Positions 1 through 10,091 of a DNA stretch of 13,398 nt are shown here, piece after piece. Where the stretch lies: positions 1 to 13,398 of the forward strand of contig PBCD01000007.1 of the NCBI GenBank assembly GCA_002717855.1. Direction: 5' to 3'. Source of the stretch: Rickettsiales bacterium (GTDB lineage Bacteria; Pseudomonadota; Alphaproteobacteria; TMED127). A program made the position numbers and the translations under genes. Position 1 is the first letter of the stretch, and every line of letters begins with the position of its first letter. Under the pieces are notes generated by a model that had not been told where the DNA came from, searched no databases, and saw only the letters and a list, made by a program, of their open reading frames with translations.

Positions 1-313
1 CCTTGATTATTTCAGCTGAATGATAAACATCATGAATAAATGCATTCAAAGCTAATGATCTCTGAATTATTCCCTTACTTATTTTAATCCACTCTAGACT
101 AGAGATTACCCTTGGGAACATGTCAAATGGTATTAATCTCTCACTAGTATCAAAATTATTATATACTGAAAAAGTAATACCAATTTTTTTAAACAAGTCT
201 TCTGCTTCTGTTTTTCTCTTTATAATGGTGCTTTCAGGCAAAGATCTTGCCCAGTCCATTATTTTAGAATAATGTTTTCTAATTTTTGAATTACTTACAG
301 TTTCATTAAACAT
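1..313 (-). CDS. Circularly permuted ATP-grasp type 2 family protein (5' part, runs off left edge)
   Basis: Translating the minus strand from the ATG at 313-311 gives 104 uninterrupted residues that reach the window edge, so the C-terminal part lies outside. It begins MFNETVSNSKIRKHY and carries the hallmarks I recognise from the N-terminus of the CP_ATPgrasp_2 (DUF404/DUF407) family: an EAEDLFKKIGITFSVY block, then TSERLIPFDMFPRVI, then LNAFIHDVYHSAEII. The family is predicted to form amide or peptide bonds using ATP. Its genes often cluster with alpha-E-domain and transglutaminase-like genes, but the substrate is not known. The start is fixed by an in-frame TAG at 334-332, with no other start codon between. 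AAGGA at 324-320 lies 6 nt before the ATG and sits inside the glutamine riboswitch. Family assignment is confident from recalled family sequence; the function is inferred only from the family. Confidence 0.85.
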   Translation of the reverse strand, partial: MFNETVSNSKIRKHYSKIMDWARSLPESTIIKRKTEAEDLFKKIGITFSVYNNFDTSERLIPFDMFPRVISSLEWIKISKGIIQRSLALNAFIHDVYHSAEIIK

Positions 314-315
314 TT

Positions 316-360
316 GCGTTCCTTCGGCATCCTACCTACTTCCGACCAAAAGGTTGAACG
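316..360 (-). promoter_or_regulatory. Glutamine-I riboswitch (glnA RNA motif)
   Basis: On the minus strand the 5' strand CGTTC (360-356) pairs perfectly with GAACG (321-317) to form P1. ACC-TTTT-GGT (354-345) forms the P2 hairpin. The core CGGAAGTAGG (344-335) and the 3' block CCGAAGGAACGC (327-316) match the conserved nucleotides of the glnA glutamine aptamer as I know it from cyanobacteria and marine metagenomes. A short P3 can form from GGT (336-334) and GCC (328-326). The likely Shine-Dalgarno AAGGA (324-320) overlaps the 3' strand of P1, and the start codon of the ATP-grasp gene is 2 nt downstream of the motif. Glutamine binding would therefore be expected to hide the ribosome binding site and lower translation. 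The motif match is seen directly; the off-switch direction is inference. Confidence 0.92.
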
Positions 361-370
361 ATAATTTAAG

Positions 371-403
371 ACTATATTGTTGATAGAATAAAATCAAGGT
401 CAA
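371..403 (-). promoter_or_regulatory. Candidate sigma70-type promoter for the riboswitch transcript
   Basis: On the minus strand, TTGACCTTGATT (403-392) offers two overlapping -35-like hexamers. TATAGT (376-371) is a possible -10, with a 15-nt gap from TTGATT or 21 nt from TTGACC. Transcription would then start a few nucleotides before the first aptamer stem at 360, which is a sensible place. Neither spacing is the ideal 17 nt, and hexamers like these are common in such AT-rich DNA, so this is tentative. Confidence 0.3.
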
Positions 404-453: not shown

Positions 454-1293
454 ATGAAAAATTTGAATAAAGATATTATTATTTTTTCCGATATTGACGG
501 AAGTTTTATGAATCATGAAGATTATTCATTTGATGAACTAAAACTTTTTGTAGCTAGAATTAGTAAAATTAGCAAAATAATTTTTGTATCAAGTAAAACA
601 TATGAGGAGATAATTAAACTTAAAAAAAAATTAAAAATATCATTTCCTTTTATAGTAGAAAATGGAGCTTGTATTTTTTTTCCAAAAAATGATTTAAATA
701 TAAAAAGAAGTAAAATAAATTTCATAGAAATTGGTGATCATATAGGCTACAAAATTTCAAGATACATCTCAAAGGATTATAAATTAAAATTAAACTTTTT
801 AAAAAAAGAATTTAGTTTTAAATTTTTTAGTGAAATTAATATTAAAAATGCAAAAGAAATTACTAATTTGAATTCTTCCTCCTTGTTAGATAGTAAAAAA
901 AGGATGTTTACAGATCCAATCTTTTGGCAAGATAAAGAAAATAAAATTTTGGACTTTCAATCAAGATTGAAGGATTTGAAACTTGAAACTTATTTTGGTG
1001 GCAGATTTATTCATGTTTCTGACAATTTTAATAAAGGAAAATCCGTTAATAGGTTTTTAGATATAATAAAATTAAATTATAATCAAAAACCTTTGACTAT
1101 CTCAGTGGGTGATAGCCATAATGACTTGAGTATGCTTGAAATTACAGACTATAGTTGTGTTATAAAAAATGCAAAAAAAAAAAATCTTATTCTTAAAAAA
1201 TTAAAAAATAAGTATTATAGTAAGCATATCGCGCCTGAAGGCTGGAAAGAGTCATTAATTTACGTATTAAAAAAGGAGAAAATTTATTTCTGA
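454..1293 (+). CDS. gpgP: Glucosyl-/mannosyl-3-phosphoglycerate phosphatase (HAD family)
   Basis: This 279-residue cytosolic HAD hydrolase should remove the phosphate from glucosyl-3-phosphoglycerate, giving the compatible solute glucosylglycerate. HAD motif I is DIDGS (D13 nucleophile, D15 acid/base) in FSDIDGSFMNHEDYSFDEL, motif II is at SSKT (46-49), the motif III lysine lies in NFNKGKS (about 194-196), and motif IV is GDSHNDLSML (219-228). ENGACIF (69-75) and the C-terminal APEGWKES are typical of the MpgP/GpgP branch (HAD-IIB). The glucosyl rather than mannosyl substrate is inferred from the adjoining GpgS-type synthase gene, whose reading frame overlaps the end of this one by 8 nt. The start has no obvious Shine-Dalgarno sequence. 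A 12-A run at 1173-1184 is crossed without loss of frame. Confidence 0.88.
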   Translation: MKNLNKDIIIFSDIDGSFMNHEDYSFDELKLFVARISKISKIIFVSSKTYEEIIKLKKKLKISFPFIVENGACIFFPKNDLNIKRSKINFIEIGDHIGYKISRYISKDYKLKLNFLKKEFSFKFFSEINIKNAKEITNLNSSSLLDSKKRMFTDPIFWQDKENKILDFQSRLKDLKLETYFGGRFIHVSDNFNKGKSVNRFLDIIKLNYNQKPLTISVGDSHNDLSMLEITDYSCVIKNAKKKNLILKKLKNKYYSKHIAPEGWKESLIYVLKKEKIYF

Positions 1294-2500
1294 TTTTTAT
1301 CAAAATGGTACTGTTGCAACTTTGCATAATTTTTCTAATAGAAAAACAGAGGAATTAGAGGCTGAATTAATTGAATTTTCAAAGTTTAGACCTATAACGT
1401 TGATACTTCCTTCTCTATTTTCTGAATTAAAGGGATCAGCATTACCAAATATTATTGAAGAAATTAGTCAGGTAAAATATATTCAAAATATAGTAATAGG
1501 CTTAGATAGAGCAAATGAAAATGAATTTGCAGAGGCAAAAAAGTTTTTCAAAAATTTACCTCAAAAACACGAGATATTATGGAATGATGGACCAAATCTT
1601 CGAAATTTAGACAATCAATTAAAAGAACAAAATTTAGCTCCTCAAGAAATGGGCAAAGGACGAAACGTTTGGTATTGTATGGGTTATATTTTAGCGTTAG
1701 GAGATGCTGAGGCTGTTGCGCTTCATGATTGTGATATTTTAACTTATAATAGAAACTTATTAGCAAGACTTATATATCCGGTAGCTAATCCTAAATTTAA
1801 TTTTGATTTTTGTAAGGGCTTTTATCCTAGAGTATCAAACTACAAAATTAAAGGAAGAGTTGCAAGGTTACTTGTTACACCTTTATTAAGAGCATTAGAA
1901 AAAACAATAGGTTTTAAGGAGTACATATCTTTTTTAGATTCATTTAGGTATCCATTAGCAGGAGAATTTTCTTTTAGAAGAAGAGTTCTTAAAGATATAA
2001 GAATACCATATGATTGGGGCTTAGAGATTGGTGTTCTGTCTGAAATGTATAGAAATTACGCTGGCAATAGACTTTGCCAAGTTGATATTGCTGATCTATA
2101 TGATCATAAACATCAAGATATTTCAATCAATGACAAATCTCAAGGACTATCTAGAATGTCTATTGATATTACTAAAGCAATAATAAGAAAGTTAGCTTCT
2201 CAAGGTGAAACTTTTTCTATGTCAATTTTTAGATCTTTAAAAGCAACATACTATAGAGAAGCATTAGATTTTGTGCAGATTTTTAAAAAGGATGCTTTAA
2301 TGAATGCATATGATTTAGATGTTAATGAAGAAGAAATTGCAGTAGAACTTTTTGCTCAAAACATAATGGTAGCTGGAAAAGTTTTTCTAGACTCACCAAT
2401 GGAAACCCCAAACATTCCGACTTGGAATCGAGTAGACACAGCTATACCTAGTTTTCTAAATGATTTAAAGCTAGCTGTTGAAAAAGATAACAACTCATAA
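1286..2500 (+). CDS. gpgS: Glucosyl-3-phosphoglycerate synthase (GT81), probable AUU start
   Basis: GpgS transfers glucose from an NDP-glucose to 3-phosphoglycerate, the first committed step of glucosylglycerate synthesis. The protein has the GT-A fold signature of the family: ITLILPSLFSELKG, then IVIGLDRANENEF, NVWYCMGYILA, the metal-binding HDCDI (DCD at 148-150), YPLAGEFSF, DWGLEIGVLSE and the C-terminal DHKHQD (273-276). The first conventional start codon in frame is TTG at 1322, but the in-frame sequence before it reads SDFYQNGTVAT, which matches the conserved N-terminus MSDF-QNG-TTLHNL of GpgS proteins as I recall it. At the place where the family has its initiator Met there is ATT (1286-1288). 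It is preceded by a strong AAGGAG (1273-1278) with a 7-nt spacer. I therefore start the gene at this AUU, giving 404 residues and an 8-nt overlap with the phosphatase gene. Enzyme identity is confident; the start is a strong inference. Confidence 0.9.
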   Translation: MSDFYQNGTVATLHNFSNRKTEELEAELIEFSKFRPITLILPSLFSELKGSALPNIIEEISQVKYIQNIVIGLDRANENEFAEAKKFFKNLPQKHEILWNDGPNLRNLDNQLKEQNLAPQEMGKGRNVWYCMGYILALGDAEAVALHDCDILTYNRNLLARLIYPVANPKFNFDFCKGFYPRVSNYKIKGRVARLLVTPLLRALEKTIGFKEYISFLDSFRYPLAGEFSFRRRVLKDIRIPYDWGLEIGVLSEMYRNYAGNRLCQVDIADLYDHKHQDISINDKSQGLSRMSIDITKAIIRKLASQGETFSMSIFRSLKATYYREALDFVQIFKKDALMNAYDLDVNEEEIAVELFAQNIMVAGKVFLDSPMETPNIPTWNRVDTAIPSFLNDLKLAVEKDNNS

Positions 2501-2511
2501 TTTTTTAAAAG

Positions 2512-4247
2512 ATGACAAGAAATACCTTTAGTAAAATTGTTAAAAAATATATTTATTTAATTTACGGTAATAGTATTAGTACTTCTCAGGTAAATAAATT
2601 ATTTATTACAATAGAAAAAATTTTTAAATCAAAAAAAAAAAAAAATCAACAGATCAATTATGGACTGAGAAAGATATTCTTTTAATTACTTATGCTGATT
2701 CATTATCAAAAAATAGTCAAAAAAATCTAAAAACATTAAATCAGTTTCTAAACCAATTTTGCAAAGAATTTTGTATGATTCATATTTTACCTTTTTTTCC
2801 ATATTCTTCGGATGACGGTTTTGCAGTCATTGATTACAAAAAAATAAAAAGTGATCATGGAGATTGGACAGATCTAAAAAAAATAACAAAAAATTTCAAA
2901 GTTATGGTAGATCTTGTAATCAATCACTGTTCATCTGAAAGTCAACTATTTAGAAATTTTTTGATTAATAAGGTTCCTGGTAAAGGATTTTTTATTAGTG
3001 ATGATAATAAATTTAAAGAATCAGTAAAAATTGTCAGACCTAGAAGCTCTTCACTTTCTAAAAAAGTACAATTAAGTAACAAAGAAGCTTACGTATGGTG
3101 TACCTTTAGTCATGATCAAGTAGATTTTGATTTTAAAAATCTAGATGTACTAATATACTTTTTTGGAATCATAAAGTTTTATCTTGATCAAAATATAAAA
3201 GCGCTAAGATTGGATGCTGTGGCTTTTTTATGGAAAAAACTAGGTACTAGATGTATTAATTTACCAGAAACACACGAAATAATTCGTTTAATAAGAATAA
3301 TAGTAGAATACTATTATAACGAGGTTTTAATAATAACCGAAACAAATATTCCTAGTCATGAAAACTTGAGCTACTTTGGTAATAATAATGAAGCACACTG
3401 TATCTATAATTTTACTTTTGCACCCTTGTTAATTCACTCAATTATTTCTGGAAATAGTTTTTATTTAAAAAAATGGTCTAGGGGAATGCCACCTGCTCAA
3501 GAAAAAAATGCATACTTAAATTTTATATCCACGCACGACGGAATAGGGTTAAGACCTTTAGAGGGAATTTTACCTGATATTGAAATTGAAAAGTATATCT
3601 TATTTTTAAAAAATCAAGGTGCATTATTAACTTATAGAAAGGATAAAAACAAGGAATCTGTATATGAAGTTAACATTACATTGCTTAATTCTTTACAAGA
3701 AACCTATGATGGTAAGGATAAATTCGATATGCAACGTTTTATTTTAGCTCATGCAATCTTATTTTCCGTTGAGGGCATACCTGCTATATATATTCAAAAT
3801 TTACTTGGTTCTAAAAATGATAATTCAAAGGTTAAAAAAACTGGGCTTAATAGATCCATCAATAGAAGAAATTGGAAATACGACGATGTTAAATTTAAAT
3901 TAAAGAATAGTGTAACAAAAAATTTTAAAATATATAATTCCCTTACCAATTTAATGAAAATTAGAAAAAAACAACCAGCATTCCATCCAAATGCCACTCA
4001 ATTTACTCTACAACTGGAGGAAGAGTTTTATGGTATATGGAGACAAAGCATTGATAAAAGTCAAAGTATTTTTTGCATAAATAATTTGACTAAATTTAAA
4101 AAAAAAATATCTCTCCTTGATATAAATTTAATATCAACGGACAAATGGTTTGATTTAATATCAAAGAAGAAATTGAATAATATCGATGACGAGTTAAAGT
4201 TTAATCCTTATCAAACTTATTGGATAACAAACAAAAAATTTAGGTGA
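2512..4247 (+). CDS. ycjM: Glucosylglycerate phosphorylase (GH13_18, YcjM-like), frame broken at poly(A)
   Basis: This is a GH13 subfamily 18 (sucrose-phosphorylase-like) enzyme closely resembling E. coli YcjM along its whole length. It should phosphorolyse glucosylglycerate to alpha-glucose-1-phosphate and D-glycerate. Counting from the internal Met at 2775, visible parts are PFFPYSSDDGFAVIDY, the nucleophile D147 in ALRLDAV, the acid/base E189 in IITETN, D255 in ISTHDGIGL, and the late block AIYIQNLLGS with LNRSINRR. The N-terminal domain is split. ATG 2512 opens a frame encoding IYLIYGNSISTSQVNKL, while the homologous continuation STDQLWTEKDILLITYADS is in another frame from 2646. The shift falls in 15 consecutive A at 2631-2645; 13 or 16 A would join the frames into about 578 residues, close to the usual family length. 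Without the join, only a truncated product from 2775 (490 residues, missing the first beta-alpha elements) could be made. The gene is 11 nt downstream of gpgS, so probably in the same operon. Confidence 0.86.
2631..2645 (+). repeat. 15-A homopolymer at the phosphorylase frameshift
   Basis: A run of 15 uninterrupted A separates the two frames of the glucosylglycerate phosphorylase gene. It is the longest homopolymer I see in the window. Runs of this kind are prone to polymerase slippage in vivo and to length errors in sequencing. Confidence 0.95.
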
Positions 4248-4295: not shown

Positions 4296-6461
<2,166 letters not shown>

Positions 6462-6530
6462 TTACACGGGATAAATTAAAACTCCCATTATTATTATTTA
6501 ATAACAAGCTTGATCAAATTCAAGAGTCTA

Positions 6531-6547
6531 ATTAGAACAATTCTAAA
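6531..6547 (-). promoter_or_regulatory. Irr box (ICE motif)-like palindrome upstream of katG
   Basis: Read on the minus strand, TTTAGAATTGTTCTAAT consists of TTAGAA and TTCTAA arms separated by 3 nt. This closely matches the iron control element TTTAGAA-N3-TTCTAAA recognised by Irr in alphaproteobacteria; only the outermost base of one arm differs. It lies 99 nt before the katG start and just after the irr stop codon. Whether Irr activates or represses from here cannot be told. Confidence 0.6.
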
Positions 6548-6550
6548 TTA

Positions 6551-6967
6551 CTATTCTTCTAGATTTATAACCACGGTAACGTTTTTAATATTGTAACCTT
6601 TAGGAGATTTTGGTAGTTTTTGAATTATCACTTGATCGTTGTTAATATCTAAAAGCTTACCAGATTTTTCAATATAAAAATGATGATGGTTATCTAAGTT
6701 TGTATCAAAGTAAATTTTATCTGAAGAGGCTCTGACAACATTAAGCATACCATAGTTTTTAAAAGAATTGAGATTATTGTAAACAGTTGCAAGAGAGATT
6801 TTAATTTTATTTTTTTTTGCTTTTCTGTAAACATCTTCAGCGGTGAAGTGACAATGACCTTCAGAATAAATTAAATTTATTAGTTGTTTTCTTTGACTCG
6901 TTAGTTTCAAAGGAGATTTGTCTAACATGTAGAATACTTTTTTTATTATTTCACTTTTATTCAGCAT
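6551..6967 (-). CDS. irr: Iron response regulator Irr (Fur family)
   Basis: This 138-residue cytosolic DNA-binding regulator belongs to the Irr branch of the Fur superfamily, which senses iron through haem in alphaproteobacteria. The winged helix occupies about residues 15-80, with LTSQRKQLI, GHCHFTAEDVYRKA and the recognition helix SLATVYNNLNSF. Irr-specific features follow: YFDTNLDNHHHFYIEKSGKLLDI with the HHH triplet at 94-96, and the C-terminal LPKSPKGYNIKNVTVVINL. The N-terminal GCPxH haem-regulatory motif of Bradyrhizobium Irr is absent, as in many other Irr proteins. It is transcribed away from the polyketide synthase gene and toward katG. PerR is an alternative name for the family, but the HHH and the tail favour Irr. 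Confidence 0.85.
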   Translation of the reverse strand: MLNKSEIIKKVFYMLDKSPLKLTSQRKQLINLIYSEGHCHFTAEDVYRKAKKNKIKISLATVYNNLNSFKNYGMLNVVRASSDKIYFDTNLDNHHHFYIEKSGKLLDINNDQVIIQKLPKSPKGYNIKNVTVVINLEE

Positions 6968-7077: not shown

Positions 7078-8082
7078 ATGGCTTATATATCTGGTTTATG
7101 TTCAAGTTTTCCAAATTTTAAGGTTTCTCAAAGCCAAATTGAAGAATTTGGAAAATTTATATTCAGAAATAATCATATTAACAATTTACTTAAGGTTTAC
7201 AAAAATTCTGGAGTAAAAACAAGATATCTTGTTGAGAATTTAGATTGGTACACTTCAAAACACAGTTGGAAAGAAAGAAACAATTTGTTTAAAAAGCATT
7301 CTATTGAACTACTTAAAAAATGTATTTCATCTACTTTGAAAAAAACAAACAAATCTCCAAATGAAATTAGTGGCATTGTGTTAATTAATAGTACTGGAAT
7401 TGCCACTCCTACATTAGACGCAGAATTAATAAATTATTTCAATTTTCCAGGTCACACAAAAAGATTACCAATTTTTGGTTATGGTTGTGCTGGAGGTGTT
7501 TTGGGATTATCAAGAGCAGTTGATATGTACAAGTCTTCATTCAAAACAGTGTTGGTTTGTTGTGTTGAAATATGTAGTTTGACGTTTAGACCTCAAATTT
7601 TCTCTAAAGCAAATATTGTAAGTACAGCATTGTTTGGTGATGGTGCAGTTTCTTTTTTGATAGGGGATAAAGGCGATTGTGAAATTTTAAAATCGTCAGA
7701 ATATACATGGAAGAACACTTTGAACCTTATGGGATGGAATGTTGAAAATGATAGCTTAGGAGTTTTATTTGATAAATCTATACCAGAATTTATTTCTTCT
7801 AAATTAAAACCTATTATAAATGATTTTACATCAAAAAAAATTGATGGATTTATCATGCATCCTGGGGGTTCTAAAATTATTAATTCTTACAAAAAAATTT
7901 TTTCAAATCACAACTCACTGCTAAAGTCTAAAGAAGTGCTAGAAAAGTATGGGAATGTCTCCTCTGTTACAATTTTTTTGGTCTTATTGACTTTCTTTAA
8001 TGACCCTATGTCAAGAGGTAATTTTTTAATGTCAGCTTTGGGACCTGGATTTACAGCTGGTCTAGCAGAGGTAAAAATATAA
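7078..8082 (+). CDS. Type III polyketide synthase (chalcone/stilbene synthase-like)
   Basis: This 334-residue thiolase-fold enzyme should condense an acyl-CoA starter with malonyl-CoA units to form pyrones or resorcinols. The catalytic triad is visible: C137 in FGYGCAGGVLGLSRA, H261 in GFIMHPGGSK and N293 in YGNVSSVT. LFGDGAVSFLIGD (185-197) and the C-terminal LSALGPGFTAGL-type block (here MSALGPGFTAGLAEVKI) are typical. It is slightly shorter than usual (about 350-400). Its stop codon overlaps the ATG of the next gene by 1 nt (TAATG), pointing to translational coupling with an ICMT-like methyltransferase. This is the arrangement of BpsA/BpsB and SrsA/SrsB, which make methylated alkylpyrones or alkylresorcinols. 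A lipid-like polyketide product is inferred from that pairing; starter and chain length cannot be read from the sequence. Confidence 0.92.
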   Translation: MAYISGLCSSFPNFKVSQSQIEEFGKFIFRNNHINNLLKVYKNSGVKTRYLVENLDWYTSKHSWKERNNLFKKHSIELLKKCISSTLKKTNKSPNEISGIVLINSTGIATPTLDAELINYFNFPGHTKRLPIFGYGCAGGVLGLSRAVDMYKSSFKTVLVCCVEICSLTFRPQIFSKANIVSTALFGDGAVSFLIGDKGDCEILKSSEYTWKNTLNLMGWNVENDSLGVLFDKSIPEFISSKLKPIINDFTSKKIDGFIMHPGGSKIINSYKKIFSNHNSLLKSKEVLEKYGNVSSVTIFLVLLTFFNDPMSRGNFLMSALGPGFTAGLAEVKI

Positions 8083-8585
8083 TGATAAATTTTGGACTTT
8101 TGTTAGTTTTATATATATTTTTTTCGAGGGTTTTAGAATTATTTATAAGTTACAGAAATACGAAAGAATTATTAAAATTAGGTGCTAAAGAACATTTTAA
8201 ATTTCATTATTACTTGTTAGTTTCTTTTCATATAATTCTTATTGTATATTTTTTTATAAAGTCTTTAATTGTTGATATAAATATTGATGTAAGTTTAATA
8301 GGTTTTATTATTTTGCAATTTCTGAGATTTAAAGTTCATTTAGATTTAGGGAAATATTGGACAACTAGAATAATTGTTTTAGAAAGCGTACCTTTGATTA
8401 ATCACGGTTTATATAAACATTTTAAACATCCAAATTATTTAATAGTTATTCTAGAAATTATTTTTTTGTGCTTAATATTTGATGATATTTTGGCACTAAT
8501 ATTTTTTTCTACTATAAATATATTTTTAATAATATTAAGAATTTTATACGAGGAAAAAGCAAATAAAAATCGAGGAAGATTCTAA
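8082..8585 (+). CDS. Isoprenylcysteine carboxyl methyltransferase (ICMT) family membrane protein
   Basis: This 167-residue integral membrane protein has about four or five hydrophobic segments (roughly 2-22, 44-62, 68-84 and the hairpin 118-152). The ICMT-family SAM-binding signature is present in the C-terminal half: LGKYWTTRI (89-97), GLYKHFKHPNYL (109-120) and RILYEEKANK (153-162). Beside type III polyketide synthases, bacterial members such as BpsB methylate the polyketide hydroxyl rather than prenylated cysteine, and I infer that role here. The start overlaps the synthase stop by one base. It ends 54 nt before the photolyase gene. Confidence 0.85.
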   Translation: MINFGLLLVLYIFFSRVLELFISYRNTKELLKLGAKEHFKFHYYLLVSFHIILIVYFFIKSLIVDINIDVSLIGFIILQFLRFKVHLDLGKYWTTRIIVLESVPLINHGLYKHFKHPNYLIVILEIIFLCLIFDDILALIFFSTINIFLIILRILYEEKANKNRGRF

Positions 8586-8639
8586 ATATAAATTAAAAGA
8601 TAGTATTGAATACTCCTTTTACTCAATTATTTAATAATA

Positions 8640-10091
8640 ATGGAAATTTCAATAATTTGGTTTAGGTATGACCTAAGAACTAATGATAATGAAGCTCTTT
8701 TTCAAGCCACATTAAATCACAGATGTTTGCCAATATATATTTTGGATACAAATTATTGTGCACTAAAAACAACCAGTCATTTTCATCTAAATTTTATAAA
8801 TGATTCACTTGAGGATTTAAATCTTCAACTTAAAAAGTTAAATGGAAATTTGAATTTTTATAAAGGATCAACAATTGAGATTTTTAAGTATTTACTTGAA
8901 AAATTTAAATTTACAAAAGTTTTTTCCAATAAGATTTTTAAAAATTATTTTCATTCCAACTTAGACACCACTATTGAAAGTTTCTTTTTGCTAAATAAAA
9001 TTGATTGGATTCAAACTAATCAGTTTGGAATACAACTTAATAAAAGGGTGAGAGGCACCTGGTCAAAAAATTGGAATAGTCAAATTTCTAAACCAATCGT
9101 TAGTGATATTCGATCTTCACAATTTCTGAATGAAAATAAAAAAATTAATTTTGAAACAGAAAAAATTAAATCTAATGAACAAGTTTTTTATCAACCAGGA
9201 GGAACAAAAAATGCTAAAAAACTGCTAGACTCCTTCATAAAGAAAAGGTGTAAGGATTATCAAAGTAAAATGTCTTCTCCATTACATGCTCAGTTGGTAT
9301 GTTCACGTTTAAGTCCTCACATTACATTTGGTACTATTTCTTTAAAAGAAATTATGAAAAAAACTAACAATTGTATAAAAAACAATTCTGTTCTTGATTC
9401 TAGATCAATTTATTCTTTTAAAAGAAGACTCGCGTGGCATTGTCACTTTATTCAAAAAATATATGATCAACCCGATTTAGAATCAAAAAATCTGCATCCT
9501 TTCTTTGAAAATATTAGAAAAAATGAGTTTGATGACACAAAATTTAGATTATGGAAAGAGGGAATGACAGGTTACCCTTTTTTAGATGCTTGCTTAAGGT
9601 TTCTCAAAGTTCATGGATGGATAAATTTCAGAATGCGAGCAATGATAGTATCTTTTGCATCCTATCAATTATGGTTATGTTGGCTTAAAACTTCAGAATA
9701 CTTAGCTTCTGTTTTTTCTGATTTTGAACCAGGTATCCATTACTCCCAAATGCAAATGCAATCGGGTACTACTGGAATAAATACAATCAGAATTTACAAC
9801 GTTGTGAAGCAGTCTTATGACCAAGATCCAGAGGGAAAATTTATTAAAAAATGGGTTCCAGAACTGAGTAAATTACCTGCATACCTCATTCATGAACCAT
9901 GGAAAATAAATTACTTAGAAGAAAAAGAGTTAAACTTTAAATTAAACAAGCATTATCCGAACAGAATTGTTGATAACTTTGAATCAACTAAAAATGCAAA
10001 GGAAAAGATTTGGAAAATAAGAAAAGAATTTGGGTTTAAAGAACTATCTAGTGAAATAGTAAAAAAACATGCAAGTTTGAAAAGAAATTAA
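8640..10091 (+). CDS. Deoxyribodipyrimidine photolyase/cryptochrome family protein
   Basis: This 483-residue flavoprotein is expected to repair UV-induced pyrimidine dimers using light, or to act as a blue-light sensor. The N-terminal Rossmann-like antenna domain starts [20 protein letters not shown] (residues 1 to about 130). The FAD domain includes [66 protein letters not shown] and [14 protein letters not shown]. Where classical CPD photolyases have NNGGWQWAASTG, this protein has [13 protein letters not shown] (367-379), replacing both Trp of WQW. The motif belongs to a recognisable subfamily also annotated as photolyase/cryptochrome. It is preceded by only 54 nt after the methyltransferase gene, so co-transcription is possible. 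Repair versus signalling cannot be decided from sequence alone. Confidence 0.9.

Follow-up and report, generated by a model that had tools for sequence, protein, structure and literature searches.

A class-I glutamine aptamer precedes a CP_ATPgrasp gene in Alphaproteobacteria and probably places it in the nitrogen-limitation response

Glutamine riboswitches of class I (the glnA RNA, RF01739) were described by Weinberg et al. 2010, whose target list names PII, glutamine synthetase, glutamate synthase, ammonium transporters, and PMT1479 (PMC2864571), and a review confines them to cyanobacteria, environmental sequences excepted (PMC6316151). The gene module found here behind such an element, which encodes a CP_ATPgrasp ligase, an Alpha-E protein, and a transglutaminase, has been proposed to be a peptide-synthesis or protein-tagging system in two papers on the structure of Anbu, which also cite its induction in nitrogen limitation (PMC5666114, PMC6376114). 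The corresponding Anbu operon of P. putida (PP_2685-2688: ATP-grasp, Alpha-E, transglutaminase, and Anbu) has three of its four genes induced in nitrogen limitation: PP_2686-2688 go up 11- to 15-fold in the wild type, 17- to 37-fold when relA/spoT is mutated, and still 14- to 20-fold in an rpoN mutant, while the Anbu gene PP_2685 shows little induction outside the relA/spoT mutant (PMC7801951). Since these genes are still induced in the rpoN mutant, sigma54 is not the whole story in P. putida. In B. cenocepacia, the cluster is named among the common targets of sigma54 and NtrC, and its DUF404/407, DUF403, and two transglutaminase-like genes show log2 changes of -8.2, -9.4, -9.4, and -6.0 in an ntrC mutant relative to the wild type (PMC5491218). 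As reported in these studies, nitrogen control is shown in both species and strict sigma54 dependence in B. cenocepacia only. A marine metagenome study associates the same domains with urea metabolism (PMC3597751).

The window, i.e., the whole stretch of 13,398 bases analysed here, contains the following elements at one end:

2-313, minus strand: CP_ATPgrasp_2 gene, cut by the window edge after the N-terminal 104 aa (PF14403, E 8.2e-10)
313-362, minus strand: glutamine riboswitch aptamer RF01739, full length (cmscan; also before the orthologue in all 23 genomes of the order that have the gene)
317-321, minus strand: P1 3' strand GAACG (cmscan alignment)
320-324, minus strand: putative Shine-Dalgarno (SD) sequence AAGGA, inside the aptamer and 6 nt before the ATG
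337-344, minus strand: conserved junction CGGAAGUA, invariant in 17 aligned leaders
356-360, minus strand: P1 5' strand CGUUC (cmscan alignment)
371-397, minus strand: promoter-like block TTGATT-N15-TATAGT just upstream of the aptamer, a candidate promoter whose TTG.TT and ATA columns are invariant in 17 aligned leaders

A cmscan search of the whole window on both strands, with the 4227 families of Rfam 15 at the gathering threshold, gives a single match, to RF01739 at 362-313 of the minus strand, which scores 56 bits against a curated cut-off of 35 (E 2.6e-10) and covers positions 1-53 of the 53 of the model; a permissive scan of bases 1-1000 returned it again together with two weak matches to eukaryotic families. 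The first-pass annotation had read a near-consensus glutamine-I aptamer before the ATG of a CP_ATPgrasp_2 gene and had suggested this very covariance check, and both the element and its coordinates (given as 311-363, which adds only a flanking base and the remainder of the ATG) proved right: GAACGCAA of the window aptamer leads directly into the ATG of the CP_ATPgrasp ORF, and the linker between GAACG and this ATG consists of CAA only. The SD sequence, which had been placed within the P1 3' strand, lies there only in part, as AAGGA (324-320) takes its first three nucleotides from the joining segment GAAG and its last two from P1. This SD-like string is built into the aptamer, because GAAGGAACG is invariant in 17 aligned leaders. 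What is unusual in the window is its location 6 nt before an ATG, a spacing that recurs only at L101 and L107, the loci of the two nearest relatives (L001 and L002), among 75 aptamer loci with an identified next gene. Compared with class I as described, the window element is a full-length aptamer with the same conserved junction, and it differs in having an alphaproteobacterial host, in abutting the ATG with an AAGGA of its own that can serve as SD, in its predicted OFF direction, and in preceding an ATP-grasp ligase operon, a target absent from the list in PMC2864571.

The gene fragment matches PF14403 (CP_ATPgrasp_2; 38.6 bits against a cut-off of 32) and PF04174 (CP_ATPgrasp_1; E 1.9e-8) over the same last 38 residues; the full orthologue of L001 (468 aa) reaches 505 bits with PF14403 and, as to CP_ATPgrasp_2 membership, PDB 3n6x was matched at E 1.7e-166. 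In L001 the CP_ATPgrasp gene is followed by genes for Alpha-E (PF04168) and then a transglutaminase-core protein, and Alpha-E and transglutaminase matches come after CP_ATPgrasp in all of the 35 loci examined (L001-L034 and L044). The window ends inside the first gene, and its operon presumably continues as in L001. The first three families of the Anbu operon are common to the L001 operon, which differs from it by the presence of a leader riboswitch and by having no proteasome family among the five ORFs of at least 100 aa that follow the transglutaminase gene; these match the MarR, COQ7, FGE-sulfatase/PEGA, MotA_ExbB, and VWA families, and over this stretch the L001 locus does not match an Anbu operon.

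Conservation of the arrangement was followed from the 104-residue fragment, which matched 440 relatives when a single genome was searched for each species; the 80 best were retained, the nearest being L001 and L002 (93 and 92% identical), both from uncultured Alphaproteobacteria, and the upstream sequences of 34 loci were inspected. Of these 80 loci, 24 have an aptamer core no farther than 400 nt before the gene. Within the order of the L001 genome, RF01739 occurs in 23 of 32 genomes and CP_ATPgrasp in the same 23, the other nine having neither, and the two adjoin each other in every one of the 23 (G042 was read apart from the other 22); these 32 genomes are related, and the counts are not independent events. 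The first-pass annotation had staked its proposal on the aptamer lying upstream of orthologues, where these 23 gene-bearing genomes all have it. This distribution speaks against a chance or model-driven match with no riboswitch behind it: the motif is small, which is all that speaks for such a match, whereas RF01739 was found in only 6 of 385 sampled genomes of the class (under stricter filters) against its presence at CP_ATPgrasp throughout the gene-bearing genomes of the order. With the E-value obtained in the window also against it, we regard this explanation as practically negligible.

Extra aptamer copies in the order are confined to two genomes, G023 with one and G017 with three identical ones. 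The copy of G023 (locus L116, region 1361-3312) is the strongest found in the order, with 66.4 bits, and precedes a porin-like gene of the Gcw_chp family and an ammonium transporter gene of the marine subtype. Those of G017 (L113-L115) are found on contigs with a long structural-looking protein which, judged by eye, are probably phage. The glutamine riboswitch reported in phage Melnitz belongs to the same RNA class, again from streamlined marine microbes and the phages that infect them (PMC9004378), and may be compared with these phage-like contigs; the paper places it at ssrA and phage genes, whereas that of the window stands in a chromosomal operon.

At 102 aptamer loci classified by the gene that follows, the next gene is CP_ATPgrasp in 41 cases, GlnA in 15, AmtB in 10, GltB in 9, and unmatched in 27, a count of the best-scoring loci only in which tandem copies count twice and from which one AmtB row (L186, sub-threshold and with its gene on the wrong side) is to be dropped. 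Among the 27 unmatched, three are visibly CP_ATPgrasp (L146, L148, and L151) and two are so by coordinates (L099 and L160), seven are similar to the glutamate synthase small subunit (named by eye; one is a fragment), eight encode small exported-looking proteins, one is the Gcw_chp and ammonium transporter locus of G023, and six are unassigned. The identified targets, the small proteins apart, are nitrogen-assimilation genes and the CP_ATPgrasp operon, and the copies before glnA, amtB, and gltB match genes named in PMC2864571. By lying before CP_ATPgrasp, the window aptamer likewise occupies the 5' leader of a nitrogen-metabolism gene, in the sense that the homologous operon is reported to be nitrogen-regulated in two species (PMC5491218, PMC7801951). 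The small exported-looking proteins (L169-L171, L178-L180, L185, and L187; ~110-127 aa) are preceded by paired aptamers in three genomes of the order of G025; the two sequences tested had no Pfam family above cut-off, and the proteins of this group are possible new nitrogen-regulated small proteins.

The association of this aptamer with CP_ATPgrasp recurs in other lineages. In TMED25 (L031, G031), the only genome with RF01739 among 101 of its order, the one aptamer found also lies before CP_ATPgrasp. G203, one of the six positive genomes of the class sample, has eight aptamers arranged as four tandem pairs, which precede a CP_ATPgrasp/Alpha-E/transglutaminase operon, two ammonium transporter genes, and glnA (CP_ATPgrasp being identified by similarity and the other genes by family checks). 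In its order, aptamers occur in 49 of 100 genomes, mostly as tandem pairs among the matches listed, and CP_ATPgrasp in 65 of 100, of which 30 are of the G203 kind (86-100% identical) and 35 are distant (36-52% identical; two of them contig-edge fragments). Every one of the 30 genes of the G203 kind, a third lineage, is preceded within 250 nt by one aptamer or more (26 from listed rows and four from a separate check). The genomes hosting the 35 distant genes are without aptamer in this set of 100, as are six sampled loci of this second CP_ATPgrasp lineage, and 19 of the 49 aptamer-bearing genomes have no CP_ATPgrasp match. A strict co-occurrence of gene and aptamer everywhere was accordingly rejected on these 19 aptamer-only and 35 gene-only genomes. 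The aptamer is also present in 12 of 28 genomes of the order of G025 and in 9 of 20 of that of G021, where the next gene, when identified, is other than CP_ATPgrasp. On the protein tree, the aptamer label changes at least twice, also when the G203 lineage is added (a 36-row tree that carries a long-branch warning), and TMED25, with its aptamer, is joined to two loci with sigma54-type sites with a support of 100/100; the trees are unrooted here and do not give the order of states.

These sigma54-type sites (TGGYA-N6-TTGCA) occur upstream of seven loci, all devoid of aptamer (L021, L024, L028-L030, L032, and L034), that is, in none of the 24 aptamer loci and in 7 of the 56 others, so that no locus of the 80 has both; 49 of the 80, mostly Rhodobacterales, have neither. 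The pattern was picked after reading the upstream sequences, which makes the count post hoc, and its background amounts to 21 matches in the 939,182 strand-bases of L001-L034, the seven counted sites included (0.022 per kb per strand). The sigma54 consensus is GG-N10-GC, which the pattern fits. In the window, the promoter form TGGYA-N6-TTGCW has no match anywhere. The riboswitch stands, then, where a sigma54-type promoter, probably acting with NtrC, stands in some relatives, and the two controls may be equivalent. A compensation for the loss of RpoN in the window's order was considered and rejected, as RpoN is encoded in 27 of 34 genomes. The seven absences all fall among the 23 genomes with an aptamer-bearing CP_ATPgrasp and may be due to single-cell genomes being incomplete. 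The order of G203 shows RpoN in 0 of 100 genomes, with or without aptamers, and such a compensation may still apply there.

The presence of RpoN in 16 of those 23 genomes, where classical nitrogen control may still act, bears on whether the aptamer could be a conserved passenger with little effect on a gene whose operon is controlled elsewhere. Against this stand the presence of the aptamer tied to that of the gene across the 32 genomes of the order, its recurrence in separate lineages, and an aptamer core that stays invariant between variable linkers: in 17 aligned leaders (of 25, including that of the window) the TTG.TT ... ATA block and the aptamer are conserved and the linker varies. We consider such a passenger role very improbable.

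Leaders of this kind also give indications about the direction of the switch. Twenty-two leaders have a linker of ~38-50 nt, which has two alternative pairing partners: the aptamer core and the bases preceding the ATG. When the aptamer is enforced in these 22, the calculated cost of opening the region from -13 to +3 increases by 3.4 kcal/mol on average. With shuffled linkers the average change is -0.7, and none of 150 shuffled-set means goes above 0.5; for 14 representatives the mean rise is 3.2, and the shuffled means reach 1.1 at most. The cost is higher with the aptamer in 17 of the 22 leaders, and for 14 of the 22 no more than 3 of the leader's own 150 shuffles come up to the observed change; five show a zero or negative difference and no OFF signature (L007, L009, L017, L020, and L044), and the signature is weak in L018, L019, and L023. 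Taken singly, the core:linker duplex (p 0.000-0.284) and the linker hairpin (p 0.010-1.000) give mixed results across the 22. The model thereby favours an OFF switch for most, not all, of the linker-bearing leaders. In the window, L001, and L002, the linker has three bases and the aptamer's own AAGGA is found 6 nt before the ATG; the secondary-structure model predicts an SD exposure of 0.58 in the free state and 0.60 in the aptamer-enforced state for the window, 0.65 and 0.60 for L001, and 0.53 and 0.60 for L002. The calculated energies do not prove that the SD of the window is hidden, as its exposure is about the same in both states, and occlusion there presupposes that the ligand-bound fold keeps the joining bases in place.

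The opposite direction, a real aptamer acting as an ON switch by which glutamine exposes the ribosome-binding region and the operon is made when nitrogen is plentiful, has a precedent in the type 1 and type 2 glutamine riboswitches of cyanobacteria, which according to a review activate expression on binding (PMC6316151). That of Synechocystis gifB, type 1, belongs to the same aptamer class, also serves nitrogen signalling, and is activated by glutamine, whereas the present leaders mostly look repressive. The five leaders with zero or negative differences and the inability of the model to separate the two states in the window fit an ON switch too; a start region harder to open in the aptamer state in 17 of 22 leaders and the reported induction of homologous operons in nitrogen limitation (PMC5491218, PMC7801951) do not, and we judge it unlikely. 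The first-pass annotation had suggested that glutamine controls the CP_ATPgrasp_2 gene by repressing it when plentiful: the placement over this gene is upheld by its conservation upstream of orthologues and by the nitrogen context, and repression appears the likelier direction, based on the folding calculations and on the expression of homologous operons. A glutamate- or glutamine-derived peptide or nitrogen store, which the annotation also proposed, would be a speculative candidate for what the enzyme makes or uses.

We therefore favour a repressive class-I glutamine riboswitch in the 5' leader of the ATP-grasp/Alpha-E/transglutaminase operon, acting as part of the nitrogen-limitation response, which we consider probable; the aptamer is a genuine class-I one and very probably controls a nitrogen-limitation operon at translation. 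Transcription would start, probably, from a housekeeping-type promoter just upstream of the aptamer. With plentiful glutamine, the aptamer would fold and the ribosome-binding region would be hidden, in the clade of the window by burial of the aptamer's own AAGGA and in most other leaders of the order by a freed linker segment pairing with the bases that precede the ATG. In nitrogen shortage the glutamine level would drop and the operon would be translated, which would make it part of the nitrogen-limitation response.

Divergently from the riboswitch operon (454-4247, plus strand) lies a glucosylglycerate-type cluster, with genes for a member of the mannosyl-3-phosphoglycerate phosphatase family, a synthase resembling GpgS (NF040724, E 1.6e-98, which falls short of its cut-off), and a GH13 protein similar to sucrose phosphorylase. 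At 16 of 35 loci this cluster lies, at least in part, no more than 8 kb to one side or the other of the operon; by their titles these loci are alpha- and gammaproteobacterial. Glucosylglycerate is reported to accumulate in nitrogen-starved mycobacteria (PMC6608630). In 4296-6967 (minus strand), a catalase-peroxidase gene is preceded on its own strand by a gene for a Fur-family regulator, and the region 7078-10091 (plus strand) contains a gene for a type III polyketide synthase similar to chalcone/stilbene synthases, which touches a gene for an ICMT-type methyltransferase; a DNA photolyase gene comes next.

A wider joint reading, quite conceivable but held tentatively, is that the operon forms a core part of the glutamine-sensing nitrogen regulon in streamlined marine Alphaproteobacteria, that riboswitch and sigma54-type promoter have exchanged places at this gene at least two times, that the expression platform in the window clade is the aptamer alone with its invariant AAGGA as ribosome-binding site, and that the nearby glucosylglycerate genes suggest one linked low-nitrogen programme.

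The aptamer is of a known kind, and the literature searched for glutamine riboswitch and ATP-grasp contained no description of this target. Class-I glutamine riboswitches are now placed in many alphaproteobacterial and some gammaproteobacterial genomes, and the locus offers a case of an RNA sensor standing where relatives have a sigma54-type promoter. For the module itself, the glutamine sensor in its leader, which one lineage also has at glnA and amtB, provides a physiological condition in which to seek its product.
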